From Schaalia odontolytica (GTDB lineage: Bacteria; Actinomycetota; Actinomycetes; Actinomycetales; Actinomycetaceae), in the NCBI RefSeq assembly GCF_024584435.1, contig NZ_CP102197.1, positions 1,240,001 through 1,304,000 on the forward strand: a stretch of 64,000 nt of DNA, in the 5' to 3' direction. Both the position numbers and the translations under genes were made by a program. The stretch's first letter is position 1, and each line of letters opens with the position of its first letter. Below are positions 36,075-61,195 of this stretch, piece by piece. Under the pieces are notes generated by a model. That model made no database searches and was not told the origin of the DNA. It worked only from the letters and a program-made list of their open reading frames with translations.

Positions 36075-36770
36075 ATGACAACCTTGACAAAGCCCACCGC
36101 GCGGGCCGCATCAACGGCTTTCGCACTTGAGCATGCATCTGATTTTGCCGTGTCCGCCGACAGGGCAATCAAGCGCGCATGCGACATCTTCGCAGCTCTC
36201 ATCGGAATCATTCTCCTGACTCCCCTCTGGCTTGTCGTCGCCCTCGTCGTGCGTCTCAACGACGGCGGACCGGCCTTCTTTACGCAGGAGCGCGTGGGCC
36301 TTGACGGGCGGACTTTTACCATGTTTAAGTTCCGCACCATGCGCGTGGATGCTGAGGCCCTCAAAGCCTCGCTCCAGGAGGCCAACGAGGCCGACGCCAG
36401 CGCGGGAAACTCGATCATGTTCAAGATTGCGAACGACCCGCGCATCACGCGAGTCGGAGCTTTCCTGCGCAAGACCTCGATTGACGAGCTTCCCCAGCTG
36501 TTCAACGTCCTGCGCGGCGACATGTCTCTCGTCGGCCCCCGCCCCCCGCTCCCCAGCGAGGTCGCGCAGTACGAACCGCGAGTGATGGGCAAGTTTGCCG
36601 TTCGTCCCGGCATCACGGGACTGTGGCAGATATCCGGCCGCTCCAACCTCTCCTGGGACGAGACGGTTCACCTGGATCTGTCCTACGCCCAGCACCGCTC
36701 CCTGACCCTGGATGCGTGGATCATCCTCCAGACCATCCCCGCGCTCCTGCGCCACGAGGGAGCCTACTAG
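36075..36770 (+). CDS. Undecaprenyl-phosphate sugar phosphotransferase (bacterial sugar transferase family)
   Basis: 231 residues. One membrane helix (FAALIGIILLTPLWLVVALV) is followed by the catalytic domain: DGGPAFFTQERVGLDGRTF, MFKFRTMRVDAE, RKTSIDELPQLFNVLRGDMSLVGPRPP and PGITGLWQISGRS. It starts glycan repeat assembly by loading a sugar-1-phosphate on the lipid carrier. It is the short WcaJ/WbaP form without the N-terminal helices. It probably primes the polysaccharide made by the minus-strand genes that follow. Confidence 0.94.
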   Translation: MTTLTKPTARAASTAFALEHASDFAVSADRAIKRACDIFAALIGIILLTPLWLVVALVVRLNDGGPAFFTQERVGLDGRTFTMFKFRTMRVDAEALKASLQEANEADASAGNSIMFKIANDPRITRVGAFLRKTSIDELPQLFNVLRGDMSLVGPRPPLPSEVAQYEPRVMGKFAVRPGITGLWQISGRSNLSWDETVHLDLSYAQHRSLTLDAWIILQTIPALLRHEGAY

Positions 36771-36793
36771 ACCCGCTTGCGTGTGTGTGATGA

Positions 36794-36830
36794 CGGGTGG
36801 GGCTCGAGCCAACGGCTCGGGCCCCACCCG
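36794..36830 (+). terminator. Terminator of the sugar-phosphate transferase gene
   Basis: A 17-bp stem (one G-U pair) capped by loop AAC, containing GAGCC-AAC-GGCTC. Confidence 0.9.
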
Positions 36831-36866
36831 TGTCTGAACCTAAGACTCTGTCTCGGCCTTAAGGGC

Positions 36867-36899
36867 TGTGGGGGGCGAACCAACGGTTCGCCCCCCACA
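36867..36899 (-). terminator. Terminator of the WecG/TagA gene
   Basis: A 15-bp perfect stem with loop AAC, containing GAACC-AAC-GGTTC. It resembles the neighbouring terminator with compensating changes. Confidence 0.9.
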
Positions 36900-36924
36900 A
36901 CCGACAAGCAGTCCTATCGCGAGC

Positions 36925-37665
36925 CTATCGTGCTCCTTCGACCACCAGCCCCAAATCGTCAAAGTGCCCGATGGCTTCCAAGCGCCTGATGAGTTCGGGA
37001 GCGTGGGCGACGAAGTCGAGAGCCTCGATCGTGTAGCGCCTCGTGAGACGACGCGGCTCGTGCGCGATACGCCACGCCCACCCGAGCCTCGCCGCGTGCA
37101 CCCAGTCGGGGAAGTAGTCATCCGCAGCCGCCGAAAACTGGTCGATCCACCCACCGGCGACGCAAGCGGAGGCACTGGGCACCTGCTCGAGCGCGTACGC
37201 GGCGACGATGTCCTGGAGGCCTGCACCCAGGCCGACGACAATCAGACGCGGATCAAACGCGCGCAGAATCCCAGGATCGGCCTTGAGGCGACGCAACCCC
37301 TCGTAGCCGTCGATCGTCTGAACATCGAAGCGCGGCAGGCGCGCGGCCGCCGCCTGCCCGGCTTCCACGGTGGTTCCGATCAGGGTGATGCGCGTTCCCT
37401 GATCAAGCCGATCGAAGACGTACGGAAGCACCAGGTCCGTTGACGTGCGAGCCACCGCGTGCCCCGCGGCACGCAGCCTCATCTGCAGGAAGGTCCCGTC
37501 GAAGCCGATAGTGTTCATGCGCGCCAGCGCGCCGAAGTCCGCGTGCAGCAGCGACCAGTGGTTGAGCCAGGATGTTGCGTGTCCGCGGGTCAGCAGGCGG
37601 TCGGCCATTGCAGCGAACGCGGCGTTGTCGACGACGGAATCGGATGTCGGCTTGTTCTCGGTCAT
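36925..37665 (-). CDS. WecG/TagA/CpsF-family glycosyltransferase
   Basis: 246 residues. Family blocks are NTIGFDGTFLQMRL, TDLVLPYVFDRL, RITLIGTTVEAGQAAAARLP, LIVVGLGAGLQD and the signature GGWIDQFSAAADDYFPDWV. Members transfer the second sugar, often ManNAc-type, onto a lipid-linked primer. The stop of the fibrinogen-like protein gene lies six bases before its start codon region, so the genes are cotranscribed. Confidence 0.9.
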   Translation of the reverse strand: MTENKPTSDSVVDNAAFAAMADRLLTRGHATSWLNHWSLLHADFGALARMNTIGFDGTFLQMRLRAAGHAVARTSTDLVLPYVFDRLDQGTRITLIGTTVEAGQAAAARLPRFDVQTIDGYEGLRRLKADPGILRAFDPRLIVVGLGAGLQDIVAAYALEQVPSASACVAGGWIDQFSAAADDYFPDWVHAARLGWAWRIAHEPRRLTRRYTIEALDFVAHAPELIRRLEAIGHFDDLGLVVEGAR

Positions 37666-37670
37666 GGGGA

Positions 37671-40600
37671 TTACCTCACCATCCTCGCTTTCAGATCGAA
37701 GGTAACAGATGCGGCGCCGCCGTAGTTGGCGTGCTCCTCGATGGCGATGCGATTCACCCCATCCTTGAGGTGCTCGCTCGGCACCGCGATGACTACGAGG
37801 TTCTTGCTGGCTTCCGCGAGAGGGACGCTGGTCGTTGCCCGCGTGTCGGGAGTGATCGTTCCCTCGGGGAGATTGACCCGCTTGAGTTCGGTGCCGTTGA
37901 TGTAGATGACGGCTCCATCGTCAACGCGCACGCGTAGCGTGAGGTCAAAGTCTGCGGTGACCGTGCCGAAGTTGACGTCTCGGGCGTAGTAGGTCGTGAT
38001 GGGGCGGTCCGCCTGGGGCAGATCGAAGGGTGTCCCCGCGTCCTTGTCGCCCCATCCGATGGGGGTCGGGCCGTGTTTCCACGTCGACAGGTCGCCGGTC
38101 GAGTTCCAGGCGGCATCGGGGGCTTCCTTGGAATTCCAGTAGTTCCAGTACATGCCCGTCGGCATGAAGTTGCCGAAGTTGAAGCCGGATGCATCCAGGG
38201 CACCGAGGGGCTTCTCCGGGTCGGGTTCGACGCGCATGTCGGGCGCCGGCGCCGGCGCGGGGTCGGGCTCGGGATCGGTGGGCGCAGGGCGAGCGGCTTC
38301 CGCTCCACCGGGAACGGCGCTGACTTGGGCATCGATGCTCATCGAGATGCTGGAGCGGTAGTTGAGGTGTGTTTCGACGGCCAGGATGTTGACTCCGGCG
38401 CGCAGGAGCGACGCGGGGACGAAGACGGTGCGGCGATCCGCCCGGGCTGCGGGCGTCGATACCGATGCGTTGGCGAAGGTCCCTGCGGAGACCGGGCCTT
38501 CACCGATCCGCTGGCGCGCGACCTCGGTGCCATTGACGTAGACGACTGCGCCGTCATCGGCGGTGACGGTGACGTTCACTCCGCCGATCGCACGCGGATC
38601 GGCGAGCGCGAAGGGGGTACGCGCGTACGTTGTGATGGGGCGGCCCTTGGCCGCACCGGGAGTGAGCTTGGTTCCCAGCGTGGGAGCGCCGTAGCCGATG
38701 GGCGCAGCGCCTCGCGGCCACGATGAGTCGTCGAACGTGGGTTGCGTCCAGTCTGCGGCGACGGCGTCGGTGGACCAGTGGTACGACCACGTGGCGTCCT
38801 CGGCGACAAGGAGCGTCGCATCCTCCGGAGTGAGGGCGGAGCCGTCGGAGGCGACCGAGTAGACGGGAGTCGAGGCCCCGCGCAGGCCCTCGGAGGAGAC
38901 GGCGCGGACGAAGAAACGGTTGTTGCCCGCCAGGGGCACGGTGACGCTCGTCGACGAGGTCGTGGCCACGGTGCGGTCATCGCGCAGGATCTCGTAGGAG
39001 GCCGCCCCGGGAACAGTGGACCAGTGGAGGGTCACCTGCTGGGCGTTGCCCTCCGACGAGCGCACGCTGGCGGGGGTGGCGGGAGCAGCTCGCCGCGTGG
39101 GCATGCGGACGAAGCCACCTGACCATTGGCTGGTCGTGCGCGTGGTGAACGAACGGGTGAAGTCACCACCGGCCCACAGGGCGCCGTCGTCGGCCATCTC
39201 GAGTGCCCACCCGCCGGTCGAGCGTTGGGACGCCAGTCGATAGGGTGTCCATCCAAGCTGCTTTCCCGTGGCCTCGTCCCAGCCTCCGACCCACTGGATC
39301 TCGTCGGCGCGGGTCCAGGTGTTACCCAGCTCGAAGTAGCGGTAGGCGTCCTGGAACGTGAAGTCCGAGCAGTGGCACGAAGCGTAGAGGACCCCCGAGG
39401 CCGAGCGGGTGCTGGCTTGCAGATCGCCGCCGTTCGCCATGACGATGGATCCCGACGTGCGGGTCATCGTGTCGGCGTTGTATCCAAACAGGGAATGCTG
39501 GGAGCCGCCAAAGTAGACGCGGCCATGTGCGGCCGTCACAGTCTGCTGGTACTTGCCGGTGTAGAAGGAGTGACGGAAGGTCCACGACTGATCGAGGGCG
39601 GCTCCTGCCGAGGTGGAGACGCGGGCTGCGTTTTCGGCGCTCCTGTCGTGAACCCGCGTGAAGAAGCCGGCGGCGTAGTAGTAGCTGACATTCTCATCAA
39701 CGTCGAGGTCAACGACTGTCCCGTTGAACTCTGGGTTCCACGTGCGGTCGGGGGTGCCGGTGAGGCTCACGCGCGCGCCGTTTCGAGCGTAGACGCGGGT
39801 CGATCCGTTGCTCAGGTGAGTGAAAGCCCCGGCGAGGTAGATCGTGTCGCCAACGAGCTTGGCGGACTTGACGGTGACCCTATTGGAGGAACCGTTGCGG
39901 ATCTGGAGAGTCCATGAGGGGTCGACCGCACCCGTCGTCGTGTCGAGGAGGACTGTTCCCGTGTGCGCTTCGCCGTTGACCCGCGTGAAGTCCCCGACGG
40001 CCAGGAGCTTGCCGCCGGGGAGTTCGACGAGATCCTTCACCTGGTTATTGAAGGTGAAGGTCTGTCCGTTCCACTCCCCCGTTGTCGCATCGAATCCGGC
40101 GAGGCCGCTGGTCGCCGTCTCGGCACCGTCCTTTCCTTTCCGCACCCCGGTGAAGTTACCTCCGACGTACATCGTGGAACCAACCTGCTCGAAGGCCTGC
40201 ACCTGGATGTTGCCTTCGCTCACGGAGCCGTTGAGGTTGCCGCTCACTCCCCACGACATGGGGGAGGCGTATTCGGACACGGTGGCCTTCGGTTGCTCGG
40301 CGCCGGTTCCGCCGTCGTTGATGGCGGCAAAGCCCGCGTCATCGGAGGAGATCTGGGGGCGGATGTAGACCTCTGCGTAGGGGTTGATGATGGTGCCGTT
40401 GCGGTGGAAGAACGACGTGGGCGAGGACGTGTCGTACCACGACTGGGCGAGCGGACCGTAGCCGAAGCCCATCGTGTACTTGTTCTGTCCCGTCGCCGTG
40501 AGGTTGACGTACCCCCATGCAGTGTTGGACCCGAAGCCCGACCAGACGATCCCGCCGTTCAGCCACGAGTCGTGGCCAAACTTAACACTGACCGGGTGGG

Positions 40601-41132
40601 CGCTCTTGAAGGGCCAGATGAAGTCACGCATCTTGGGGAAGCGCATGCGCACGGTCTGGTAGCTGGTGCCCCTGGGGTTGTACGCGCGCTGGACCATGAT
40701 GCCGTCGTCAAGGTCTGAGACGGCACCGCCGCCGAGGAGCCCGTTCACGGTTTCGTGGGAAGCCTGGAGGACACCGAAGTCGCCTGCGGTGCGGGGGCGA
40801 GTGGCGAGCTTGGACTGATTGCCCTGCCCCTGAGCCCATGTCTCCCAGCCTTCGCGTCCGCGCCCGATGAGGACCCAGCCGCCGCCGTCGGTGGTCTGGT
40901 CGCAGAAGAAACGACCCGGAGCATTCATCGTGGGTGTCTCGAGCCAGTAGGTTCCGTCCTGAGCGGACGGGTTCTTCTGCTTGATTTCCCAGCATGATGC
41001 CGCAGCCGTCGCTTCGCTGAGTCCGTCGTGGAGGGGATCGGCAGCCGCGTTGGTTGCCGGGGTGAGCGTGAGCGCTCCGTAGGCGGCCAACGACGCACAT
41101 CCGAGGGCAAGGCAGCGGCGCACAGTCTTCAT
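37671..41132 (-). CDS. Secreted fibrinogen-like domain/beta-propeller protein (paralogue 1)
   Basis: 1153 residues. Sec signal (ALGCASLAAYGALTLTPAT) cleaved near AAADP. Residues about 35-280 form a fibrinogen-like domain with FFCDQTTDGGGWVLIGRGR and ASCWEIK as its partner Cys. Then come about six propeller-like repeats of the delta-60 type (VGSTMYVGGNFTGVRKG, GGKLLAVGDFTRVNGEAHTG, DTIYLAGAFTHLSNG), a conserved YASCHCSD motif, a fibronectin III-like domain (VTLHWSTVPGAASYEILRDD), and two homologous C-terminal beta modules (DDGAVVYVNGTEVARQRI and DDGAVIYINGTELKRVNL). There is no LPXTG or membrane anchor. The ATG at 41132 has GAGGA upstream. Its place in a glycan locus suggests a glycan-binding or glycan-displayed exoprotein; that is inference. 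Confidence 0.85.
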   Translation of the reverse strand: MKTVRRCLALGCASLAAYGALTLTPATNAAADPLHDGLSEATAAASCWEIKQKNPSAQDGTYWLETPTMNAPGRFFCDQTTDGGGWVLIGRGREGWETWAQGQGNQSKLATRPRTAGDFGVLQASHETVNGLLGGGAVSDLDDGIMVQRAYNPRGTSYQTVRMRFPKMRDFIWPFKSAHPVSVKFGHDSWLNGGIVWSGFGSNTAWGYVNLTATGQNKYTMGFGYGPLAQSWYDTSSPTSFFHRNGTIINPYAEVYIRPQISSDDAGFAAINDGGTGAEQPKATVSEYASPMSWGVSGNLNGSVSEGNIQVQAFEQVGSTMYVGGNFTGVRKGKDGAETATSGLAGFDATTGEWNGQTFTFNNQVKDLVELPGGKLLAVGDFTRVNGEAHTGTVLLDTTTGAVDPSWTLQIRNGSSNRVTVKSAKLVGDTIYLAGAFTHLSNGSTRVYARNGARVSLTGTPDRTWNPEFNGTVVDLDVDENVSYYYAAGFFTRVHDRSAENAARVSTSAGAALDQSWTFRHSFYTGKYQQTVTAAHGRVYFGGSQHSLFGYNADTMTRTSGSIVMANGGDLQASTRSASGVLYASCHCSDFTFQDAYRYFELGNTWTRADEIQWVGGWDEATGKQLGWTPYRLASQRSTGGWALEMADDGALWAGGDFTRSFTTRTTSQWSGGFVRMPTRRAAPATPASVRSSEGNAQQVTLHWSTVPGAASYEILRDDRTVATTSSTSVTVPLAGNNRFFVRAVSSEGLRGASTPVYSVASDGSALTPEDATLLVAEDATWSYHWSTDAVAADWTQPTFDDSSWPRGAAPIGYGAPTLGTKLTPGAAKGRPITTYARTPFALADPRAIGGVNVTVTADDGAVVYVNGTEVARQRIGEGPVSAGTFANASVSTPAARADRRTVFVPASLLRAGVNILAVETHLNYRSSISMSIDAQVSAVPGGAEAARPAPTDPEPDPAPAPAPDMRVEPDPEKPLGALDASGFNFGNFMPTGMYWNYWNSKEAPDAAWNSTGDLSTWKHGPTPIGWGDKDAGTPFDLPQADRPITTYYARDVNFGTVTADFDLTLRVRVDDGAVIYINGTELKRVNLPEGTITPDTRATTSVPLAEASKNLVVIAVPSEHLKDGVNRIAIEEHANYGGAASVTFDLKARMVR

Positions 41133-41341
41133 CAAGTCCTCATAGGTCGCACGTTAATGGTTACTTCTATACTGTCACGGGCTTCGGCAGTACTCAACCA
41201 GTCGGTTAACAAAACCCGAGAGTCTTTGACCACACACAAGGGAACCCCCACCGCAGCGGTGGGGGTTCCCTTGTCAGCCACTGCGACCGAGCCTTAGCGG
41301 CACGGGCGCGGGGCTGTCGGCCCGATGGGACGCTCTCGTTT
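41133..41341. other. Intergenic between the paralogues
   Basis: Contains the terminator above and an AT-richer promoter region for paralogue 1 with GGTTAAC (41204-41210), the same heptamer found in the 35.9-kb operator cluster. Nothing else is visible. Confidence 0.55.
41236..41274 (-). terminator. Terminator between the two fibrinogen-like genes
   Basis: An 18-bp perfect stem, ACAAGGGAACCCCCACCG and its complement, with loop CAG. It lies just past the stop of paralogue 2, so paralogue 1 needs its own promoter. Confidence 0.92.
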
Positions 41342-44300
41342 CTACCTGGCCAGCGTGGCCGTCAGGTCGAATGTCATGGACGGAGTGCCCTTGTAGTTGA
41401 CATGCTCCTCGACGCCAACCCTGTTCGTTCCGTTCGTCAGGAGCTTGGCCGGGATGGTCACCTCAAGCAGGTCGGAGCTTGCCTTGGAGGCCGACACGGC
41501 CGCGTTGGCGAAGGTCGTGTGCCCGATCTCCCCGTCCGACATGCGCCTGGTGGCAACCTGCGTTCCGTTGACGCGCAGGACGACGCCGTCATCCGCTCGA
41601 ACCTTGACGGTCAGCGTGGTCGATGGCGTGATGGTGCCCAGGTCGATATCGCGCGCGAAGTAGTAGGTGATGGCACGGTCCTTCTTGGCGATGTCGAGGG
41701 GCGTGGCCGCGTTGGCGTCTCCCCAGCCGATGGGCCCGGACCCGCGAGACCAATCCGCGAGGGAGGCACCGGTCGACCAGTCAGATGCGGGCGCGGTGGT
41801 CGAGGTCCAGTAGTTCCACTGCGTGCCCGAGGGGATGACCGTACCGGTCTTGACCAGGGCCGCATCGATGCTGCGGCTCGCGTCCCCCGTGTTCTCGGCC
41901 TCGGCGTCGTTGGCCCTGGCGCCGCCCGAACCCGTCGAAGTGTCCGGGCGCCCTTCGACACGCACGATCGATGCCTGCATGGACACGGTGGCGGTACGCA
42001 GGTAGTTGACGTGGGTCTCGACGGCGATGACGTTCTCACCCGTCTTCAGTGCGGAAGCCGGAACGAATGTCTCGGACTGTGCGGCGACTGCCGCACTATA
42101 GCGCGGGGCCGATTCGGCTCGCGTGTTGTAGTCGACGGCGCCGGACCCCATACGGGTGCGGTGGACCTCGACGCCATTGATGTACACGACGGCACCATCA
42201 TCGGCCAGGTACTTCAGGGTGATCCCCTTGAGGGAGTTCGCGTCGTGCACGGTGAAGCGCGACCGGAAGTAGGTGGTCACAGGACGGGTCCCCCGGCGCT
42301 CAAGCTGCGTGGTGATACGCGGATCGCCGTAGCCCAAGGGGGCCGCTCCGGTCGACCAGTCGGAGTCGTCGAAGGAGTTCTGTGCCCAGTCCTCGGGAGC
42401 AGGACTGTTGTCGGCACGGTAGCTCCAGGTTGCACCGGCGTCCAGAAGCACCGGGTTCGCGGGGTCCGCCTGTCCGTGAGCCGGAGGCTGGTAGGCGGCC
42501 GTGGTGGCAGAACGATTGCCTGCGGCATCAACGGCGCGCACGAAGAAGCGGTTCTCGCCACCGCGCGGCACCGTCACCGAGGTCGCGTCTGTGGAAGCGA
42601 TCGCCCTGTCGTCACGCAGGATCTCGTAGGATGTGGCGTCGGAGACGCCTTCCCACGACAGCGTCACCGTGGATTCGTCGGCCGAGGAGCTTCGCACGGC
42701 GTTCGGCGTCTCGGGAGCGACGTTGTCACGTGCGTCGTATCGGGCAAAGCCACCGTTCCACTGCGTGCGGGAAGCGTCGATGTGGGACAGGGTGAAGTCT
42801 CCTCCCACCCACAGGTTGCCGTTGGTGTCGGTGGTGAGCGCCCAGGCGCCCGTCCTACGCTGCGAGAGTAGCTCGAAGGGCGTCCAGTGGAGGTGTTCAC
42901 CGGTGGTCGCGTCCCACGCGCCGACCCACTTGATCTCGTCGACGCGAGACCAGTCGTGACCGGCCTCCCACATGCGCTTGTCCTGATAGCTGCCGTCGGA
43001 GCAGTGGCAGGAGGCGTAGATGACGCCGTTGGCGGAGATCGTTGACGCCTGGAGGTCGCCGCCGTTACTCATCGTCACCGATGCGGAGGTGCGCTGATTG
43101 GAGCCGGTGTCGTAGCCGAAGAGCGAGTGCTCCGACCCTCCGATGAAGACGCGGTTTCCGTCCGCGGAAATGGTCTGCTGGTACTTGGCCTGTCCTTCGG
43201 AGGAAGGAACGAAGGCGAAGCCCGTATCCTGGGCGGCTCCGGCTTGGGTGGAGAACTTCGCAGCGTACCAGGCGCGCTCGCCTCCGTGGGCGCGGCTGAA
43301 GTATCCGCCGAGATAGATGGAGCTATTGGCCTCGCTGCCCCTGATGGCCTGGACGGCACCGTTGAGTTCGGGGTTCCAGGAGCGGTCGGGGACGCCATCG
43401 AGCGAGACACGGGCGGCGTTGCGGCCGTACACCCGGTTGCGGGTTCCTCCGCTCAGGTGCGTGAAGGAACCTCCGAGGTAGACGTAGCCGTCGTGGTAGG
43501 TGGCCGCACGCACGCTGACCGCTCCGCCGCGCAGAGCGCTCGAAATGGTCAGACCCCACGAGGAGTCAACCCGGCCGGTCGACGGGTCAATGACCGCCGT
43601 GCCCACGTGGGATTCGCCTCCGACGCGGGTGAAGTCCCCGGCGGCGAGCAGCTTGCCGTTGGGAAGAGCCACGAGGGCCTTGACCTGTCCGTTGAAGTCA
43701 AAAGTCTGGCCGGTGAAGTTCCCGGTTGCGACATCGAAGGCCGCAAGCCCCTGGGAGGGGACGACGGAGCCGTTTTCGCCCTGCTTCACGCCCGTAAAGT
43801 TGCCGCCCACGTACATGGTGGAGCCGACCTGGGCGAAGGCCTGAACCTGAATGTTTCCCTCTCGCACGGAGCCGTTGAGGTTGCCCGTCACGCCCCACGA
43901 GGTACGGGCGGCGTACTGCGAGACGGCGCGGGTCACCGTCGAGGCGCCTACGCCTTCGTCAGGAATACGAGCGAAGGCCGAGGAGTCCGAGGCGATGCGG
44001 GGACGAATGTAGGTCTCCGCATACGGGAAGACGGTCTGGCCGCTCTTACGGAAGAAGGATGAAGAGGAGGAGACATCGCCGCCCCATCGCGCTGCATCCA
44101 CCCCATAGCCCCAGCCGATGTTCCAGCCGGTGCGCGTCGAAGGGTAGACCTGGAGCGCGTTCCATCCCCGGTCGTAGCCGGGTGAGTTCCAGATGTCGTT
44201 CGAGACGGCGCCGCGGCCATCGATCGACATGTTCACGGGATGCCCCATCTTGAAAGGCCATACGAAGTCGGTCATCTTGGGGAACTGGAGGTCCAGCTTC

Positions 44301-44809: not shown

Positions 44810-44923
44810 GGCACGACCTTTCGGAGTAAATGGACTTGATGAATAAATAATTACACAACAAGCCCTACCCCATCAACCGAACGGTCAAGCACGACTTTCA
44901 CAGGCGCACCACGAGCCCCTCGT

Positions 44924-46411
44924 TCAACGCTTCCTCGCCCTCACAAGGGACCCAAGTCCCGTCAGATGGAGGCGTTCCCTGAATATCCAGCAGGCGCAGG
45001 CAAAAGTCACAATCGACAGCAGTGATCCAGTAACGGTTGCAACAAACGAATCGCGGCCGAGAACCGCAGCTATACACCCGCCCGGAATCGCCACGGAAAC
45101 TCCGACAACGAGGATCGGCTTGACCACTTCGGAAAGTTTTGGTGTCACGCCGACGAATCGCGAGACCTGAACGGTGGCCATTGCGGCGTCAAGGACCATG
45201 CACACCGCCCACACGATGGCTGCAGCGACCATTCCGCCGCGCGGAATGAAGATGATGTTACCCACAATGTTGAGCGCGAGGACGACGATCTTGTTCACCG
45301 CCGCCCATCCGGAGCGCCCACTCATGATGAGCAGGGAGTGAATGTTACCGGCCATGAAGGTCACGATGGAGCCTATGCACAGAACCACGAGGACACTGGC
45401 CCCCGGGGCGAAGCCATCCCCGAGGATCCGCATGAGCGCCGGGGCGAAGATCGCCATCAGCGCATAGATCGGAGCGGCGAACAGGACCAGCCAGATGGAG
45501 GCCGTCCCATAGAGATCTCGCAGCTCGCCGGTACGCCGTCGATGCAAGAGCTTGGAGAACTGGGGCGAGACGACAACTCGCAGCGCCGTATCAACCACCA
45601 TTCCCGCCTGAATGAAGCGAATCGCTCCACCGTAGATGCCCGAGGCAGCATTGCCCGCCAGCATGCCCACGAGGAGCACGTCCAACCACTGCAGGGCCTG
45701 CTCGAGACCCGCGGTCAGGGTGCGAGGCAGGGCGAAGGAGAGAACCTGGCGCCGCCTCTTCGACGAGGGCCATCGTCCGAACGAGTCGACGGCGGAGGGC
45801 ATGTGCCGCAGCAGCAGCCACCACGCCGCGACGAGAACAACCGCGAAAGGAAGCGCCCACGCAACAGAGACGAGCGCGAGCGATCCCGTGAGCGCCGCAG
45901 CGAGCGCGACCAGGAGAGGGCGAAGGCCAGGAAGCAGGAGATTTTGAACGAGGACGTACTCACGCATGTTTCCGAGGGCGCGCAGAGCCGCCGAGGCAAC
46001 GAGCGTGAGCGCACCGATCGGGACAAACCAGAGGACGGCGCGGGTGGAGGACGCCACCTGGGCGTCCCAGATAAAGGGCGCGGCGACCTCGAGAACGAGA
46101 ACACACACGGTCGAGACGGCTACCGTCATCGTCGCCATGAAGGACAGCGTCGCCCGTATCTCCTGCGGGGCATCCAACGAGAGCCGCGGAAGCAGGTAGA
46201 TGGCGGTCGAGTCAAGGCCGACCTTGGCCAGCGCCATGACGATGGCGAAGACACCGGTCGCCTGAGTGACCACACCCGCCCCCTGCGCACCCAGCATCCG
46301 CGACAGGATGATCGTGAACGCGAACCCAAGGACCGCCGAGGCGGCAGCGCCCACGAAACCGGCAATGCCGCTACGCGCCAACGAACGTCTGGCTTGATTT
46401 GTCTCACTCAT
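44924..46411 (-). CDS. Oligosaccharide flippase (Wzx/MATE-like)
   Basis: 495 residues with about 14 predicted helices. The N-terminus (SGIAGFVGAAASAVLGFAFT, ILSRMLGAQGAGVVTQATGV) is typical of polysaccharide export proteins of the Wzx/RfbX type. It should flip lipid-linked repeat units to the outer face. The ATG at 46411 has GGGAGGACGG upstream; the longer frame has no such site. It follows a divergent promoter shared with the gene at 46471. Confidence 0.92.
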   Translation of the reverse strand: MSETNQARRSLARSGIAGFVGAAASAVLGFAFTIILSRMLGAQGAGVVTQATGVFAIVMALAKVGLDSTAIYLLPRLSLDAPQEIRATLSFMATMTVAVSTVCVLVLEVAAPFIWDAQVASSTRAVLWFVPIGALTLVASAALRALGNMREYVLVQNLLLPGLRPLLVALAAALTGSLALVSVAWALPFAVVLVAAWWLLLRHMPSAVDSFGRWPSSKRRRQVLSFALPRTLTAGLEQALQWLDVLLVGMLAGNAASGIYGGAIRFIQAGMVVDTALRVVVSPQFSKLLHRRRTGELRDLYGTASIWLVLFAAPIYALMAIFAPALMRILGDGFAPGASVLVVLCIGSIVTFMAGNIHSLLIMSGRSGWAAVNKIVVLALNIVGNIIFIPRGGMVAAAIVWAVCMVLDAAMATVQVSRFVGVTPKLSEVVKPILVVGVSVAIPGGCIAAVLGRDSFVATVTGSLLSIVTFACACWIFRERLHLTGLGSLVRARKR

Positions 46412-46470
46412 GTCCGTCCTCCCCGCTAGCCAGCGGTAACCTTGCTCCATAACCGAACGATGGGATACTC

Positions 46471-47115
46471 ATGGACTTCGTCAACTCACTCTCGCCGCTG
46501 CGCAAGAAGATCCTCCTCGCGGCCGCGATCCTCCTGATCATCTCGCTCGTCGTCGTGGCCGTCCTGCGTCTGTCGGGTTCCCCCCACGCCGATACTGCCG
46601 CCGCCTCGGGCACGCAGAGCGCCCCCGACGACCAATCCGGCGAGCCGCAGTCGATCCCGAAGACCATCACGCCCCAGTCCGGCGGCCCCTCGAACGCGTC
46701 CGGGTCCCTCAGCACCGACGCGGAGGCGGCCGGACAAACCTCTTTCGTCGTCAACACGCTGTGGGGGGCGTACTCCGATCCTGCCCAGGCGCAGGCAACA
46801 GACCTGTCCTCCGTGCTTACCGCTTCCGCGCTGGAAGAGTTCGACGCCCAGGCAGTGGAATGGTCCCGCGACGGAACCCACGCCACGGGCACGCCCACGC
46901 TGGAGGACGTGCATATCCTGAGCGATGACGGGGCGGGCAACGTCACGGTATCCGCGTGCGTGGATTCCTCATCCGTGAGCGTCCTCAACGACGCGGGAAC
47001 CTCTCTGACGGATGACACGACCATGGCTCGCGCCCTCACCTATTTTCAGTTTGTGAAGGATGGCGAGAACTGGAAGCTGTCGGGGGTGTCCTTCCCCGAC
47101 GACCCGACTTGTTGA
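46471..47115 (+). CDS. Membrane-anchored extracytoplasmic protein of unknown function
   Basis: 214 residues. One N-terminal helix (ILLAAAILLIISLVVVAVL) is followed by a Ser/Ala/Gly/Gln linker of about 60 residues and a compact C-terminal domain (AGQTSFVVNTLWGAYSDP, YFQFVKDGENWKLSGVSFP). The domain has the look of an NTF2-like/DUF4878-type fold; that is tentative. It has two Cys, one near the C-terminus. Its 3' end overlaps the convergent Wzy gene by 80 bases, which is unusual. It is divergent from the flippase. Confidence 0.75.
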   Translation: MDFVNSLSPLRKKILLAAAILLIISLVVVAVLRLSGSPHADTAAASGTQSAPDDQSGEPQSIPKTITPQSGGPSNASGSLSTDAEAAGQTSFVVNTLWGAYSDPAQAQATDLSSVLTASALEEFDAQAVEWSRDGTHATGTPTLEDVHILSDDGAGNVTVSACVDSSSVSVLNDAGTSLTDDTTMARALTYFQFVKDGENWKLSGVSFPDDPTC

Positions 47116-48553
47116 GCCGCTCCAGCATCCGCGTGGAGAAAGCCCCGTCGTTCGCGGCGGGGCTTTCCCATTCCCCGACGCGGACGATGGGCGCGGCGCG
47201 CATCGTCCCCGCGACGCTGCCCGGCGTGGGCGCGCCCTCACGCTCGGCGGCCTCGTGACGCAGAGGTTCGTTCTCTTCCTCGAGGTGTCGGGCCAGCAGC
47301 GCGACGGCCACGACGGAGAGCATCAGGCCGGTGTTCATGCCGTAGTAGAACTGCTCAACAAGGGTCGCCAGGATGATGCCGCCCAGGATCGACCCGTACA
47401 CGTCCGTCGCGCGCCACACGCGCGGAAGCATCCGAACGAAGAACGCGATGAAAAGGAAAGCTCCGACGATTCCGTAGGAGAAGAGCACCGTCCAGAATTG
47501 TCCCTGCGTGCCCAGCGACGGAAGCCACGCGGAGGCGGACGGGCGCGGTGCTCCAAAGCCCAGGAGCGGGGATTCAGCCAGTTCCGAGATGGTTTCGAGG
47601 TAGTTCGAGGCTCGGTCCTGGGTCGAGGAGGAAGCTGCCACTCGTTCGAGGAGCGATTGTGAGGCTGGCGTCGCGAGCCATGCGCCGATACCGATGACGA
47701 CCGCTGCTCCGATGCCTGCCACGGTTTGCCACGCCCCAACCCTCAGGCGTTGGAATCCGACCCACAGGACGACGATCAGCAATCCGATATACATGCCTCG
47801 ATTGAGCGTTGCCGCGGCCGGGATGACGGAAAGAGCACACAGCGCCGCAGCGACGAAACGCCACCGTGAGCGTTCGCGCCACAGGACGAACGCGAACACC
47901 AGGGCCAGGGGGAAAATCAACGAGAAGACGTTGCCGTAGGTGTTGGAATAGATGAACGGGGCGGAAGGACGAGGATCGGACAGCGCCCACGACGTCGGGT
48001 TCCACTGGGTGGTTGCGCGCCTGACGAACTCCTTGACGAAGTCGTTGCCGTGAAGCGAACGCGGAACGACGTAGTACATGAGCGTCTTGAAGCGCAGGGT
48101 CGGAAACGCCATCGCGATGAATCCGCCCACCGTCGTGGATGCGAGAAAACCCCACATGGTTGCCACGATCGTTCGCACGCTCAAAGACTTGCGGGCGTTG
48201 AAGGCGTAGACGGCGAAGATGCCGGGAGCAAGCTCGAGAGCAAAGCGGTAGATCGCGCCGATGACGCGGCCACCGGAATCCAACATGGACATGGAGGCAA
48301 TCACCCAGGCGAGGAAGAAGACCCACAGAATGGTCCCCGGCGGAAAACGCAGGCCGCTGCGGCCCACCATCAGGACGAGCATGACGATGGCGAAGAGCGG
48401 CCACATCAGGTCGCCGGCCCCCAGGACCCACCAGAGTAGGTATGCGCAGTAGGCGACGACGAACGGCCAGGCGGGCAGGTCCTGCACGTCCTCACGCAGT
48501 GGCCCGATGCTGGCGGGGGCCGGTTTGCCCCAGATTCCTCGGCGCGCGCTCAC
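47036..48553 (-). CDS. O-antigen polymerase/ligase family protein (Wzy-like)
   Basis: 505 residues with about 11 predicted helices and a large loop. The conserved C-terminal part has SNYLETISELAESPLLGFGAPR, the WzyC-type G-x-G region. The last 60 residues are hydrophilic and overlap the convergent gene. It should polymerise or ligate glycan repeats outside the membrane. The start is GTG at 48553, overlapping the previous stop by four bases (GTGA). Confidence 0.87.
   Translation of the reverse strand: MSARRGIWGKPAPASIGPLREDVQDLPAWPFVVAYCAYLLWWVLGAGDLMWPLFAIVMLVLMVGRSGLRFPPGTILWVFFLAWVIASMSMLDSGGRVIGAIYRFALELAPGIFAVYAFNARKSLSVRTIVATMWGFLASTTVGGFIAMAFPTLRFKTLMYYVVPRSLHGNDFVKEFVRRATTQWNPTSWALSDPRPSAPFIYSNTYGNVFSLIFPLALVFAFVLWRERSRWRFVAAALCALSVIPAAATLNRGMYIGLLIVVLWVGFQRLRVGAWQTVAGIGAAVVIGIGAWLATPASQSLLERVAASSSTQDRASNYLETISELAESPLLGFGAPRPSASAWLPSLGTQGQFWTVLFSYGIVGAFLFIAFFVRMLPRVWRATDVYGSILGGIILATLVEQFYYGMNTGLMLSVVAVALLARHLEEENEPLRHEAAEREGAPTPGSVAGTMRAAPIVRVGEWESPAANDGAFSTRMLERLNKSGRRGRTPPTASSSRHPSQTENR
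47138..47167 (+). terminator. UUCG-capped hairpin past the 46471 gene
   Basis: A 13-bp stem (GAAAGCCCCGTCG and partner, one G-U pair) with a TTCG tetraloop. It lies inside the C-terminal codons of the convergent Wzy gene, so it can terminate the plus-strand gene while being coding on the other strand. Confidence 0.65.
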
Positions 48554-49911
48554 GCCTCCGCGTCTCCTTCCCGGGGGTGGGCCTCCTCCTCGGAGGCCGG
48601 ACCGGTCGGGTACTCGCCGCGCGCGTCCTCCCGGACGGCGCTCTGGCCGCCCTCGTGTGCCCGATCCTGGGCGCCGCGACGGCTGGGCACCAACCTGTTG
48701 CGACGCCGCGAGGACAGGTAGAGGAAGGGCCCTTCCAGGAAGCCCTTGATCTCGGAGATGGTGAGGGATCCGGGCATGTCGCTGTCGGTACCCGAGACCC
48801 GCTCGCCTCCGGGCTTGATGCGGGCCAGAACAGCTGGCACTCGCGCAAACAGGGAGGCAAGGATCGTGGGCTTGGCGAGGATTGCCTTGGTGAGCAGGGC
48901 GGCCATGCCCGAGCCGTTGCCACGGATCTGCTTGTCGAGGCCCGCCTCGTCAACCCGGTGGCGGTGGTGCACCAGCGCATCGGGAGTATGGACGATGATG
49001 TCACCCGTGGCCAGGATGCGCGCAAACATATCGAGGTCCTCGCCTCCGCGCGTCGATGTGCCCGCTCCGAGGGCAGGATCGAAGGGGCCGACCTCCATCA
49101 GAACGTCGCGGCGTATGGCCATGCACACCCCTGCCCCCACGCGGGCGGTCGTCACGGGGTACAGCGGCCCCCCCTCGCCCTTCTCCCCCAGCGCCTCAAG
49201 GCCGCGGGGGAGGTCTGCCGTCGACCACACGCGCGCGGTGAAGTCTTTGGGGAAGCCTCCTCGGGATTCGAACCAGCGTTGGGGCGCGTAGCGCTGCTGG
49301 AGAGGCAGGACGATGCCCGTCGTCGCAGCCACGTATGGGGAGGCCGTGAAGGGGTCGATCATGGCCGTCAGCCAGTGGGGGTCAACGATGGCGTCGTCGT
49401 CGGTGAAGACAATGACTTCGCCTCGAGCCGCGAGAACGCCGCGGTTGCGTGCCCGAGACAGGCCCTGACGCGACGCCGAGACGATACTCAGCCGGGTGTC
49501 CTCGATGCCTGCGAGCTTCGCACGCGTCAGGCCCGTGTCGGGAGCGTTATCGACGACGACGAGGGTGAAGCGCTGATGGTCCTGGGCAAGAATGGCTCGC
49601 ACGGCCTCCTCGAGCATGTCCGAGGACCCGACGGTGCACATGATGACGGTGGCGTCAACGTCGGCGCCAGCACCCTCCTCCCATCCTCGGGCGGGCGCGG
49701 GTGGAACAGCGGCGACGCGCGGATCCTCCTCCGGGTGATCGGTGCCCTCGATCTCCACGAAACCGGAGTTGCGTCCATGGTCGCGCACGAGGACGAGCGC
49801 GCGAGGAGCCGACGGGTCGCCGGAGACGAGCTGGCTGACTCGGGCACTGCGGTCAACGTGCCAGACGGAGGCCGCCAGGTGATCGTCGGCGAGCTGGTCC
49901 TCGACGCTCAT
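48550..49911 (-). CDS. Family 2 glycosyltransferase
   Basis: 453 residues with the GT-A core starting at about residue 85: DATVIMCTVGSSDMLEEAV, FTLVVVDNAPDTG, GLSRARNRGVLAARGEVIVF, then DDD in FTDDDAIVDPHWL. Also RGGEDLDMFARIL for acceptor binding. The N-terminal 80 residues are an extra, poorly conserved module. It is coupled by ATGA overlap to the Wzz-like gene and by GTGA to Wzy. Confidence 0.9.
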   Translation of the reverse strand: MSVEDQLADDHLAASVWHVDRSARVSQLVSGDPSAPRALVLVRDHGRNSGFVEIEGTDHPEEDPRVAAVPPAPARGWEEGAGADVDATVIMCTVGSSDMLEEAVRAILAQDHQRFTLVVVDNAPDTGLTRAKLAGIEDTRLSIVSASRQGLSRARNRGVLAARGEVIVFTDDDAIVDPHWLTAMIDPFTASPYVAATTGIVLPLQQRYAPQRWFESRGGFPKDFTARVWSTADLPRGLEALGEKGEGGPLYPVTTARVGAGVCMAIRRDVLMEVGPFDPALGAGTSTRGGEDLDMFARILATGDIIVHTPDALVHHRHRVDEAGLDKQIRGNGSGMAALLTKAILAKPTILASLFARVPAVLARIKPGGERVSGTDSDMPGSLTISEIKGFLEGPFLYLSSRRRNRLVPSRRGAQDRAHEGGQSAVREDARGEYPTGPASEEEAHPREGDAEA

Positions 49912-51257
49912 TGTTGTTCCTTCACGTCGGCGATGAAGTCCCTGGCGGGCATCGTGTCCGTCGGACTTTCGCTGACCGGGGTGACGCGGCCTCCATCCGG
50001 CGACGAGGCGGTCGGGCCCTCAGGCGTCTCGGCCAGCGCGGCGCTCGGCCTCGGCGCCGAGGCCTGGGTGGCGCTGATCGGTTCGCCCAGGTAGATCATG
50101 CCGTTGACTTCTCGGTTGATGAGTGCCAGTTCATTCAGAAGAGCGTGCAACTTCTTCAGGTCATGCCCCCCGCGCACCGCGATGAGCACGTGTCGGGAGG
50201 GACGAACCTCGTCCAGGAGGGAGGCCAGCGGCTGGTTGATGTCGATGAGCCGCGGCGCCGGCACCCTCGTCTCGGCCAGGGAGCGTGAGAGGACGCGGTG
50301 CAGCGGGCGCGCCTGTGGGTCCGTGGCGTCCACGATCAGGTCAACCCAGTGATCGCGGTCGATCGCCATGGCAAGCATTCGGGTCGGGGCGAGCCACGGC
50401 TCGGGTGCCCCCTCCTCGGCGCTCCACACGGGCAGCGCCGTGAGGTCGGCGAGCTGAGTGGGGGAAGCGAGCGAACGCGATCGGGTTTCCTGAAGGAGTA
50501 CCGTCACGAGTCCGATAAAGAGGCCGACCGCCGTGGTAATCAGAATCATGCGCGACTTCGAGGGGGTGACCTCGTCTACCGAGGCATCCGCGTTCGTGAG
50601 AACGAGGCCGGCGCTGGCGTGGTAGGGAACGAGCTGGGCGCTCTGCTCGGTGAGCTTGCTGATCTGGGTGCGCAGCTCGGTGGCACGCGGGTTCGCGGTG
50701 GGCTTGCCGTCCTCGTCGACGAGCGCAGGTAGCGCCGCCAACTCGTTTTGCAGCGCCGTGATCTGCTCGTTGATGACCGCGCTCATCTCATCAGCGCGCT
50801 TTTCCACGAGGGAGGTGCGCTGCTCGAGGTAGTGCGCAGCGATCGCGTCGGCGGCGGCCACGGCCGCCTCGCGCGTCGACGCGGTGTAGCCGATGTTCAC
50901 GATCGTCCCGTTCGTGTCACCCGACACCTCAAGGTTGTCACGCAGCTCGCTCGCTGTGATGCCGCCGCCGAGTTGGGCAGCAGCGGCATCCAGGACAACC
51001 GCAGACTTGGCGATCCCCTGCTCGGTGGCCATGTCGGTCGTGTTCGACAACGACGCCCGCACCGCGGGAGCCGGTGTCGGAGACGGGGAGGTGACCGTCA
51101 TCGCGACGGTCGCGGAGTGGGCGACCGGCACGGCGAATGCGGCGGCGACACCCACGACCAAGCCGGCCACGGTTCCTACGACAATCGACTCCCAGCGGCG
51201 CGCCAGCGCGTGGCGCAGGATCTGCTGGCCGCCGGTGGGCGGAGGAGTAAGAATCAT
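49908..51257 (-). CDS. Wzz-like chain-length determinant protein
   Basis: 449 residues. Two membrane helices (SIVVGTVAGLVVGVAAAF near residue 30 and MILITTAVGLFIGLVTVLL near residue 235) flank an extracytoplasmic helical region with long coiled coil (KRADEMSAVINEQITALQNE). The C-terminal cytosolic part resembles a degenerate Wzc/CpsD-type region with no Walker motif (LIVDATDPQARPLHRVLSRS). It should set polymer length. The ATG at 51257 has AAGGAGA upstream. Confidence 0.87.
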   Translation of the reverse strand: MILTPPPTGGQQILRHALARRWESIVVGTVAGLVVGVAAAFAVPVAHSATVAMTVTSPSPTPAPAVRASLSNTTDMATEQGIAKSAVVLDAAAAQLGGGITASELRDNLEVSGDTNGTIVNIGYTASTREAAVAAADAIAAHYLEQRTSLVEKRADEMSAVINEQITALQNELAALPALVDEDGKPTANPRATELRTQISKLTEQSAQLVPYHASAGLVLTNADASVDEVTPSKSRMILITTAVGLFIGLVTVLLQETRSRSLASPTQLADLTALPVWSAEEGAPEPWLAPTRMLAMAIDRDHWVDLIVDATDPQARPLHRVLSRSLAETRVPAPRLIDINQPLASLLDEVRPSRHVLIAVRGGHDLKKLHALLNELALINREVNGMIYLGEPISATQASAPRPSAALAETPEGPTASSPDGGRVTPVSESPTDTMPARDFIADVKEQQ

Positions 51258-52162
51258 GACTGTTCTCCTTGGAGGTGAGAGCGCACCCACGCGGCGCGCG
51301 CGTTCAGCCGACGCTCGAGGACGCGGCGAGACGAAGCGGGTCGAGACGCGACCCCCTGAGTGTAGACCTGCACGAAGCGGTCGAGCTCACGCTCGGCCCG
51401 ATCGCGAGGAAGAGAAAGCAGCGACACCAGACGCGGCAGCTCCCGGCCCGTGAGCGCGACCGACAGGTCCGCAAACGCGCGCGCCTGCTCCGGATTCCTC
51501 CATGAATCCGCTCGCCAGGAGGCGTTTCCAGTGACTTGTCCGGGATGAATGCGGTAGAGCAGACCCCACGCCGCCAGGCGACGGATGCGCCCACCAACGG
51601 CACCGACTCGCAACCACAGGTCGTAGTCTTCGGCGGGAACAGCGCGATAACCTCCGACGCTGTCGATAATCTCGCGCGTGGCCAGCATCGTCGGATGGCA
51701 CACCGGGTTCGTCAGCAGAAGGTGCCACCCCATGTCCTCGGGAGTGATCTCGTAGGGAACACGAGGAACCGGGCGCGCACCCCGCAACTCGATCATCTGC
51801 GTAAAGACCATGTCGTCGTCGCGTTCGATAGCGCGCATCGCGCGCTTGAAACGGCCCTTGAGGGACACGTCGTCGGCGTCCATTCTGCCGACAAGGCGTG
51901 AATCCGTGCGCTCCATGAGCTGGGTGAGGACTCGCGACACACCTCCCTCGCCCGGCGTGATCTCCTCGATGCGCAGGCGCGGATCGACCACTCCCCCACG
52001 CGAGGCGCCTCGGATCGCCTCCCCGACCGTCGAGTCGCACGACGAGTCGTTGCCGACGACCAGCTCGGCGTCACGAGGCATCGCGGCGAGGGTGGAGGAC
52101 ACCGCCCGCGTGATCGTGTCCGCCGCGTTACGTGCGGGCAGGAGAACGGAGAGATCAGGCAC
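51254..52162 (-). CDS. Family 2 glycosyltransferase
   Basis: 302 residues. GT-A core: DLSVLLPARNAADTITRAV, DAELVVGNDSSCDST, DXD motif in RLVGRMDADDVS, and the acceptor motif PAEDYDLWLRVG. The start is GTG at 52162, which overlaps the preceding gene by eight bases; the open extension upstream lies inside that gene. Coupled to the Wzz-like gene by ATGA. Confidence 0.9.
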   Translation of the reverse strand: MPDLSVLLPARNAADTITRAVSSTLAAMPRDAELVVGNDSSCDSTVGEAIRGASRGGVVDPRLRIEEITPGEGGVSRVLTQLMERTDSRLVGRMDADDVSLKGRFKRAMRAIERDDDMVFTQMIELRGARPVPRVPYEITPEDMGWHLLLTNPVCHPTMLATREIIDSVGGYRAVPAEDYDLWLRVGAVGGRIRRLAAWGLLYRIHPGQVTGNASWRADSWRNPEQARAFADLSVALTGRELPRLVSLLSLPRDRAERELDRFVQVYTQGVASRPASSRRVLERRLNARAAWVRSHLQGEQS

Positions 52163-52925
52163 GACCGCCACCCGCCGCCGCGGCGGCGTCAAGCGCCCGC
52201 AGGTCGCTGAAGCGACGACGCAGCGATATCGCGCAGTGGGCGATCGCCACCGCCGCAAGGAGGGAGTACAGAACCATGAACGGAGCGCCCAACCCCCACA
52301 GCACGAACGACCAACACAGGACACCGGGGTCGGTGGGCAGCAGGATGAAGGACCTCAGGTTGCCGCCGCGGGTCTGCTTGCGTCCGGCAGCGCGCACGAA
52401 TTGTTCGGCGAGGATCTGACTCATGAACTGGCCGGAGGTCACCCACCCGTAGGCAAGCGCCACGAGCGCGAGCCACCACGACTCCGGGAGGTGGGCCATG
52501 ACCGCGATGGCGGTACAGAAGTGGATCGCGGGCGAGCGGAACGCGTCAGCAACGTGGTCGACCCACTCCCCCGTCTTGGACGAAGCACCGGTCACGCGCG
52601 ACACCTGCCCGTCGGCGGAGTCAAACATGAAGCCGACGGCGAGCGCCACTCCCACGATCAGGCCCGACCACCAGGCGGGAGACAAGGCGACCAAAGCGAC
52701 GAGGCCGATCGCCGAGAAGCACACCGAAACGAAGCTGACAAAGTTCGGCGTCCACCCTGAGGCGGCGCAGGCGGCGGCGACCACGCGGGCGGCACCCCGG
52801 TTGACCCACCGCATGTAGGCGGGCACGCCGGCACCCGGTTTCTGCGCGGCGGCGAGCGCCGAGCGGTAGGCCGCGAAACGGCTGCCCCACGAGGAGGAGG
52901 GATCGACCGCGACGGGCAAGCTCAT
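52155..52925 (-). CDS. CDP-alcohol phosphotransferase-family membrane enzyme
   Basis: 256 residues with about six helices. The active-site motif is present as FDSADGQVSRVTGASSKTGE followed by WVDHVADAF, matching D-x2-D-G ... G-x3-D-x3-D, with Ser in place of the usual Ala before Arg. It should transfer an alcohol phosphate from a CDP-alcohol. The adjacent cytidylyltransferase could supply that donor. Start ATG overlaps its stop (ATGA). Confidence 0.9.
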   Translation of the reverse strand: MSLPVAVDPSSSWGSRFAAYRSALAAAQKPGAGVPAYMRWVNRGAARVVAAACAASGWTPNFVSFVSVCFSAIGLVALVALSPAWWSGLIVGVALAVGFMFDSADGQVSRVTGASSKTGEWVDHVADAFRSPAIHFCTAIAVMAHLPESWWLALVALAYGWVTSGQFMSQILAEQFVRAAGRKQTRGGNLRSFILLPTDPGVLCWSFVLWGLGAPFMVLYSLLAAVAIAHCAISLRRRFSDLRALDAAAAAGGGRA

Positions 52926-53419
52926 TGTGCGTCCCCTTCCGCCGTCGTCTCGCTCGTCGTGCTCGCGGCCTCGTCGGCGAAGTCTTCCGGAGCGATGAAG
53001 CGACGCAGCTTCGTTGAGGATGTCGAGGGCGTGTAGGGCAGGTAGACCACGCGGGCACCAACCTCCGCCATCTCAGCTTCGAGCTGAGCGCCCTTGGGGG
53101 TGCCTTTCCAGTCGTCACCTTTGAAGAGAACGTCAAAGGGCTGCAGGCGCCACGCCAGGCGTTTGTCCTGATCGAGGTCCACGACGACCGCGTCGACGAA
53201 GCGCAGGGAGGACACGAGGTCGCAACGCTCCTTCAGCGGGATGACGGGGGCACGCCCCTTCATGCGGATGAGGGCCTCGTCCGAGGTCACCCCGACCACC
53301 AGACGATCGCAGCGCTCACGGGCCGCGCGCAGGATATTGAGGTGTCCCTGATGGAACATGTCAAAACCCCCGGGTACGTAGCCGGTGACGGAGGTGCGTT
53401 GCTGAGTCGTTTCGTCCAC
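52922..53419 (-). CDS. TagD/RfaE-like cytidylyl- or adenylyltransferase
   Basis: 165 residues of the HIGH nucleotidyltransferase fold: GYVPGGFDMFHQGHLNILRA (HxGH), VVGVTSDEALIRMKGR, RFVDAVVVDLDQDKRLAWR and the C-terminal STSSTKLRRF. The closest functional type is glycerol-3-phosphate cytidylyltransferase, which would make CDP-glycerol. A CDP-linked polyol for the next enzyme is the natural reading, but the alcohol is not fixed by sequence. First gene of the six-gene coupled operon. Confidence 0.88.
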   Translation of the reverse strand: MDETTQQRTSVTGYVPGGFDMFHQGHLNILRAARERCDRLVVGVTSDEALIRMKGRAPVIPLKERCDLVSSLRFVDAVVVDLDQDKRLAWRLQPFDVLFKGDDWKGTPKGAQLEAEMAEVGARVVYLPYTPSTSSTKLRRFIAPEDFADEAASTTSETTAEGDAQ

Positions 53420-60934: not shown

Positions 60935-61195
60935 GAATTCACTTTCTGGGTATCCGGTGTTCACGAACCAACACAAACCGAATGGTAAAAGTTGGTCACC
61001 CAGTACGATACCCCCTCTTGTCGCGTAAGCCAAGCCGGTAAGGATTCTGTCTGTCGTAACGGTCAACCGCTCGGCGCTGGTTGGGTTCCCAGCGAGGTTT
61101 ACCTTGTTGGACGGTGCGGGCCACATTGCCTGCTCAAGCCGCGGTCGCTGTCCCTTGCCACTTCGTTTGACGACTGTGTCTCGCCGCGGCGTGAC
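60935..61195. other. Intergenic upstream of the beta-helix gene
   Basis: AT-richer stretch (60960-61010) that should contain the beta-helix gene promoter. No gene and no other clear element. Confidence 0.5.

Follow-up and report, generated by a model that had tools for sequence, protein, structure and literature searches.

In Vibrio cholerae, Bap1 and RbmC are two secreted multi-domain proteins that have a common β-propeller and differ in their other domains, and the conserved propeller is reported to bind Vibrio polysaccharide (VPS) by gel shift (PMC10102183). A second described entity is NCBIfam NF040941, 'fibrinogen-like YCDxxxxGGGW domain-containing protein', a 46-residue model that is silent on propeller, locus and function. 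Among the matches listed from the open-access literature, none dealt with this protein family, and a paper on lipocones, in the part available, deals with propellers in other systems and does not mention fibrinogen (PMC12419801). Here we analysed a 64,000-nucleotide stretch of the Schaalia odontolytica genome (2.39 Mb on a single contig), hereafter the window (G000:C1:1240001-1304000), in which a polysaccharide locus of the Wzx/Wzy type (36075-53419) carries two giant genes for exoproteins A and B. Both open reading frames were found on the minus strand between WecG (36925-37665) and Wzx (44924-46450), where a model's earlier reading of the letters, the original prediction, had also placed two collinear secreted proteins of about 1150 residues. 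The linkage of such exoproteins to a polysaccharide locus is real and strongly supported by the comparisons below, and with moderate confidence we propose that A and B would be secreted matrix proteins for the locus's own polymer, working like Bap1 and RbmC.

The original prediction had drawn the link between exoproteins and polymer from gene position and had named homologues away from glycan loci as the contrary outcome. Within the same family, the exoprotein gene or genes adjoin Wzx and WecG in 19/19 loci (ten plus nine), and Wzy stands in the same stretch in 17 of them and elsewhere on the contig in L059 and L060; the named relative Actinomyces bouchesdurhonensis (Actinomycetaceae) has the same gene order, with 73-92% identity for the locus genes. 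Among 35 genomes of the genus, 23 have a match to the exoprotein profile; in 22 it spans most of the profile length, and in G556 it consists of two short pieces (propeller and tail) on separate contigs. The identical 23 genomes match the CDP-alcohol transferase, which in G556 is a weak match on the contig with the propeller piece, and Wzy matches 21 of those 23. Because the 35 genomes are related, they are not independent trials, and a single shared gain or loss event could account for much of this agreement.

Next to these, the linkage was assayed in distant actinobacteria, where few genomes have NF040941 (4/296 in the phylum sample and 30/396 in the order sample). The distant set comprised all 25 genomes outside the genus from the phylum and order searches, read up to ~10 kb on each side; a second G697 match, on a short contig, stands outside the 25-locus count. 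At least one frame uniting the fibrinogen-like domain with the propeller was found in 25/25 loci. Our own profiles, whose 21 training loci included L048 and L049, detected Wzx or Wzy in 19/25 loci, or 17/23 when these two are left out, and Pfam added a Wzy_C protein in L050, which gives 20/25; no Wzx or Wzy was found in the 18 control regions from genomes with the motif. The controls had round coordinates chosen by hand instead of random ones; genomes with and without the motif supplied 18 each, and L165, from the latter group, was dropped as it touches locus L145, leaving 35 in all. The Fisher test was run on the distant counts of 20/25 and again with 19/25 and 17/23. The linkage was retained under varying gene order (e.g. 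L048, L049, L103, L109) and in genomes of up to 9.4 Mb. The CDP-alcohol transferase was present in 13/25 distant loci and the nucleotidyltransferase in 7/25, with the transferase lying ~4 kb past the stretch read in L097, L099 and L102, and one of the 18 controls (L127) gave a weak transferase match. As 19/19 and 20/25 stand against 0/18, the link to polysaccharide genes no longer rests on the position in one genome, and occurrence away from glycan loci was not seen as a rule. Separately, L050 4972-7782 (937 aa) looks from its sequence like a fusion of a flippase-like N-terminal half with a Wzy_C polymerase/ligase half; Pfam supports only the latter.

A and B are 49% identical over 1126 columns, and both open with a predicted export-type hydrophobic segment; the frame of A (37671-41135) is TTG-led, and its likely start is the ATG at 41132. 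Scanning frames stop to stop, upstream residues included, revealed a hydrophobic stretch ahead of the core in 61/61 family members (best 18-residue mean 1.57 to 2.69), and a C-terminal sorting motif (LPxTG-type signal plus transmembrane segment) or a strongly hydrophobic C-terminus was found in 0/61, so that the absence of a wall anchor, already noted in the original prediction, extends to the family. The β-propeller, CHC motif, fibronectin type III (fn3) unit and two repeated C-terminal modules that it had listed were likewise recovered. Pfam Rax2 matched B at 31.5 bits (cut-off 28.8) and A at 17.6 bits, under the cut-off, and an AlphaFold2 model of B residues 287-705 (pLDDT 72.3, pTM 0.81) has numerous solved propellers as structural neighbours (designed eight-bladed Tako8, WD40, Kelch); the query TM-scores are ≤0.51 among the 50 neighbours listed, values that do not fix the blade number. 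The fn3 unit matched the chitinase A1 fn3 domain (3.6e-5), the C-terminal modules of B share 32% identity with each other (E 5e-23), and protein A contains a proline-rich linker. Each exoprotein has two cysteines in its first 19 residues and then four only, namely the fibrinogen-like pair and the CHC pair. Across 61 cores, the CHC residues are conserved at 95% (C), 100% (H) and 95% (C), and H561, D585, Q587 and H602, as well as C58, C88 and GGGW, at 100%. Conservation of this kind over so many cores rules out chance. Full-length B, modelled on a 4-sequence alignment, reached a mean pLDDT of 45.9, and its fibrinogen-like part was of low confidence (mostly 20-38).

The tails differ between genomes in length and composition. 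In L111 (2466 aa) and L115 (1745 aa) the frame runs on far beyond the same fibrinogen-propeller core. In the tree of the 61 cores, A and B fall in two neighbouring clades inside the window group (joining branch 92/84), and separate tandem duplications occurred in G554, G565 (three copies), G364 and the G867/G613 lineage. We infer that this repeated duplication at one spot suggests selection for more than one putative binding specificity.

To place the locus among wider relatives, the CDP-alcohol transferase was compared between order genomes and found in 24/30 with the motif vs 61/366 without; as the motif and transferase order searches list identical genomes, they were taken as one sample. 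Loci were then examined at 28 of the 61 motif-less transferase sites (L137-L164), the first 8 giving a propeller in 5/8 before the other 20 were chosen, which gave 13/20. With the same profile and threshold, a Rax2-like propeller frame was thus present in 18/28 loci vs 0/35 controls. The four scanned frames above 1000 aa (L139, L142, L143, L144) all carry LamG and PKD domains. Pfam, applied to seven frames, assigned a Rax2 propeller over the cut-off with LamG and PKD to L139 and L143, LamG and PKD with DUF5122/Rax2 under the cut-off to L142 and L144, a propeller alone to L137 and a Wzy-like protein to L140, and matched nothing in L138. The window's Wzy subtype was found in 0/28 and its Wzx in 1/28 (weakly) of these loci, so that a Wzx/Wzy subtype is particular to the fibrinogen-like branch. 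As judged from these profile matches, the constant part across the wider loci is the propeller together with the locus, and not the fibrinogen-like domain on which the original prediction had built its binding argument. The gap in transferase scores above 300 bits (19 genomes, all with the motif) was set aside as evidence, because loci of this kind had supplied most of the profile.

The fibrinogen likeness itself proved limited. The YCD...GGGW motif stands, with NF040941 scores of 74.8 and 71.7 bits in the two proteins (cut-off 30), and the likeness is confined to the first part of the domain. A domain profile (45 sequences, 240 positions) compared with solved chains ranked intelectins at the top (6.5e-10 to 1.6e-8, with XEEL at 6.5e-10), followed by angiopoietins, tenascins and fibrinogen, the best solved relatives thus being intelectins and not ficolins. 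In the 33 chains listed with a fibrinogen-related domain (FReD), the best-aligned stretch ends by position 72/240, and the short techylectin-5A match (41-58) also lies inside it. The Pfam Fibrinogen_C cut-off (22 bits) was not reached by A (15.9), B (16.6) or the B domain alone (20.6); 36/45 domain members match this family at E≤0.01, an E threshold and not the Pfam cut-off. Ficolins and intelectins have their ligand site in the other, C-terminal half of the domain, and intelectins bind exocyclic diols. Because the homology ends by about residue 70, this site has no demonstrated counterpart here, and neither calcium nor ligand residues could be identified in a domain whose FReD alignment stops by residue 72. 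The argument from ficolin-type binding of acetylated sugars is therefore not supported. Intelectin-style binding, considered because the nucleotidyltransferase and CDP-alcohol transferase suggest a phospho-polyol on the polymer, was rejected as a claim as well, since the homology does not extend to the half that binds ligands. A scan of viral_contigs for further sequences returned no relatives.

The interval also holds a gene absent from the original prediction, P18 (46471-47115, plus strand). Third-position substitutions dominate its plus-strand frame in 8/8 relatives compared, and homologues occur in 19/19 same-family loci, where the plus-strand protein outscores the minus-strand one in all 19; the minus-strand frame 46404-47039, at first taken as an operon gene, was discarded as an artefact on this substitution pattern and these scores. 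Pairing of P18 with exoproteins is present in part of the loci: in 12/25 distant loci a homologue adjoins the exoprotein gene and shares its strand, lying upstream in 11 and separating two exoprotein copies in L107, and none was found in the 28 transferase loci without the motif. A lipobox-like site was present in 7/32 P18 matches scanned, of which one is a control-region protein (L126) and one is doubtful (L053). The weaker P18 relative in control region L126 indicates that P18-like proteins also occur outside this system.

Following the design of Bap1/RbmC, the nearest proven case, after export the β-propeller would bind the polysaccharide of its own locus, and the fibrinogen-like domain with the C-terminal fn3 and β-sandwich modules would bind further targets, which could be surfaces, other cells or additional polymer. 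P18, anchored in the membrane, may help to export, fold or tether the exoproteins at the cell surface, and such tethering would explain the missing wall anchor. That the exoproteins bind, decorate or are held by the polymer is thus a plausible, putative role. Several results weigh against this proposal. Wzx/Wzy was not found in 5/25 distant stretches, three of which are on contigs of 9-12 kb (L112-L114) and two of which (L117, L118) have no short-contig excuse. The profile found no propeller in 10/28 motif-less loci, although L143 among them has one by Pfam. A P18 homologue was not found in the stretch read for 13/25 distant loci, and in the window group P18 lies on the opposite strand between wzy and wzx, so that strict exoprotein-P18 pairing is not needed. 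Moreover, repeated tandem duplication fits other roles too, the propeller is assigned to Rax2/DUF5122 by Pfam and resembles the Vibrio proteins in design, and the high conservation of H561, D585, Q587, H602 and the CHC motif would also suit an enzyme site.

This last point leads to the alternative of an enzymatic role, in which the exoproteins would act on the polymer outside the cytoplasm as a ligase, transferase, lyase or modifying enzyme and the active site would lie in the propeller near these residues and the CHC cysteines. Besides the near-invariance of this set in the 61 cores, four motif-less genomes aligned in this region (L043; L034/L047; L035; L041) lack the CHC cysteines and keep H561 in L043 alone, and a pattern search of ten motif-less loci returned neither H...GGDxQ nor GGDxQ...CH. 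However, H602 is present in all four motif-less alignments and the GD.Q pair in three, which indicates that some of these residues belong to propellers in general; neither Pfam nor NCBIfam gave a match to an enzyme family, the structural neighbours listed are generic propellers, and repeated tandem paralogues would suit binding better than a single catalytic step. We therefore regard an enzymatic role as unlikely.

Co-occurrence of exoproteins and locus in the same 23/35 genus genomes would also be expected if the exoproteins were acceptors of a protein glycosylation system, to which the Wzx/Wzy glycan is attached with P18 helping at the membrane; that P18 accompanies the fibrinogen-like version, and that protein A has a proline-rich linker, agree with this, and LCP ligases form glycoproteins in Actinomyces. 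We nevertheless consider it quite improbable, as neither a glycosylation site nor a ligase was identified, and members of 793-870 aa (e.g. L105, L113, L117) stop ~90-120 residues past the core and thus have no room for such a linker. Variation of tail length and make-up between genomes would instead suit adhesins for host or partner-cell glycans, residing in the locus since surface genes cluster and exchange together. This appears more doubtful still, because the linkage persists in distant actinobacteria with genomes to 9.4 Mb and other gene orders, where a common host niche is unlikely, and because hitchhiking alone would hardly yield the identical 23/35 genomes as one transferase, although one joint gain or loss could.

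Features of the polysaccharide locus and of exoproteins A and B (window coordinates)
Feature	Position	Strand	Remarks
WcaJ/WbaP-type sugar transferase (Bac_transf)	36075..36770	+	short, divergent; NCBIfam scan
WecG/TagA/CpsF glycosyltransferase	36925..37665	-	Pfam
Exoprotein A	37671..41132	-	1153 aa; export-type N-terminus, fibrinogen-like domain, Rax2-like β-propeller, fn3, β-sandwich modules
CHC motif of A	39369-39377	-	residues 586-588
Exoprotein B, tandem paralogue	41342..44809	-	1155 aa
Two repeated C-terminal β-sandwich modules of B	41345..42448	-	41975-42448 and 41345-41842
fn3 unit of B	42485..42715	-	profile match
β-propeller of B	42740..43927	-	about residues 295-690
CHC motif of B	43001-43009	-	residues 601-603
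Fibrinogen-like domain of B	43955..44677	-	residues 45-285; first ~70 residues alone align with animal FReDs/intelectins
Wzx-type flippase	44924..46450	-	Pfam
Membrane-anchored partner P18	46471..47115	+	N-terminal membrane segment by reading, then extracytoplasmic-type domain; antisense within operon
Wzy-type polymerase	47036..48553	-	Wzy_C 24.5 bits, under cut-off 31.7
GT2 glycosyltransferase	48550..49911	-	
Wzz-like chain-length protein	49908..51290	-	weak Pfam match under cut-off
GT2 glycosyltransferase	51254..52324	-	true start probably inside frame
CDP-alcohol phosphotransferase	52155..52925	-	DxxDGxx(A/S)Rx8GxxxDxxxD motif read in sequence
RfaE-II/TagD-like nucleotidyltransferase	52922..53419	-	under equivalog cut-offs of both

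The minus-strand genes are transcribed in the order nucleotidyltransferase, CDP-alcohol phosphotransferase, GT2, Wzz-like, GT2, Wzy, Wzx, exoprotein B, exoprotein A and WecG, and the short WcaJ-type transferase diverges from this operon on the plus strand. An initiating transferase, glycosyltransferases, Wzx, Wzy and Wzz thus occur together, as in Wzx/Wzy-dependent loci, where the Wzy and Wzz calls, with Pfam scores under the cut-off, are based also on position and conservation. The motif of the phosphotransferase, which we take to be that of CDP-alcohol transferases, together with the nucleotidyltransferase suggests from family knowledge that the polymer may carry a phospho-linked alcohol such as glycerol, with neither enzyme reaching its equivalog cut-off. 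About 5.5 kb past the locus, 58934-61126 (minus strand; likely start internal) encodes a right-handed β-helix protein (NosD/Beta_helix/DUF1565) with an export-type segment, which could be a candidate polysaccharide lyase or epimerase.

More tentatively, and with rather less confidence than we place in the matrix role of A and B, the wider loci could represent a widespread actinobacterial two-part system. In it, loci with a CDP-alcohol phosphotransferase and an RfaE-II/TagD-like enzyme would have a dedicated giant propeller protein recognising their own polymer, interchangeable modules (fibrinogen-like, LamG, PKD, fn3, β-sandwich) would determine which targets the coat adheres to, and P18 would have been added in the fibrinogen-like branch; the whole would parallel the Vibrio 'double-sided tape' but have arisen independently in Gram-positive bacteria. 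If true, the actinobacterial NF040941 and Rax2/DUF5122 propeller proteins would acquire a function via defined polysaccharide loci, and the matrix-protein-plus-polymer design of Vibrio would gain a Gram-positive counterpart. A saturated transposon library exists for Schaalia odontolytica (PMC12369343), and a review relates its coat genes to its phage and Saccharibacteria epibiont (PMC13414283); if the strains of those studies carry the locus, the idea is directly testable. In the available portions of the main texts of two Schaalia odontolytica papers (PMC12369343, PMC10768705), the words 'fibrinogen' and 'polysaccharide' do not appear.

Compared with the known systems, A and B both lie above the NF040941 cut-off. 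With intelectins and ficolins they have in common the SC...DGxYxL...CDxxTxGGGW start and the identical cysteine pair, but the homology stops before the ligand-binding half and Fibrinogen_C stays under its cut-off in the window proteins. The propeller places them by Pfam with the Rax2/DUF5122 proteins, whereas those compared that lack the fibrinogen-like start also lack the CHC motif and mostly H561. With Bap1 and RbmC they have in common an export-type N-terminus, the absence of an anchor, a β-propeller and a tie to one polysaccharide system, which here is one of gene linkage; they differ in genomic setting, a Wzx/Wzy locus in Gram-positive actinobacteria, in the fibrinogen-like N-terminus, in the membrane-anchored partner and in polymer binding, which is putative here. 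Judged by analogy, the parallel with Bap1/RbmC is a likeness of design, not membership.

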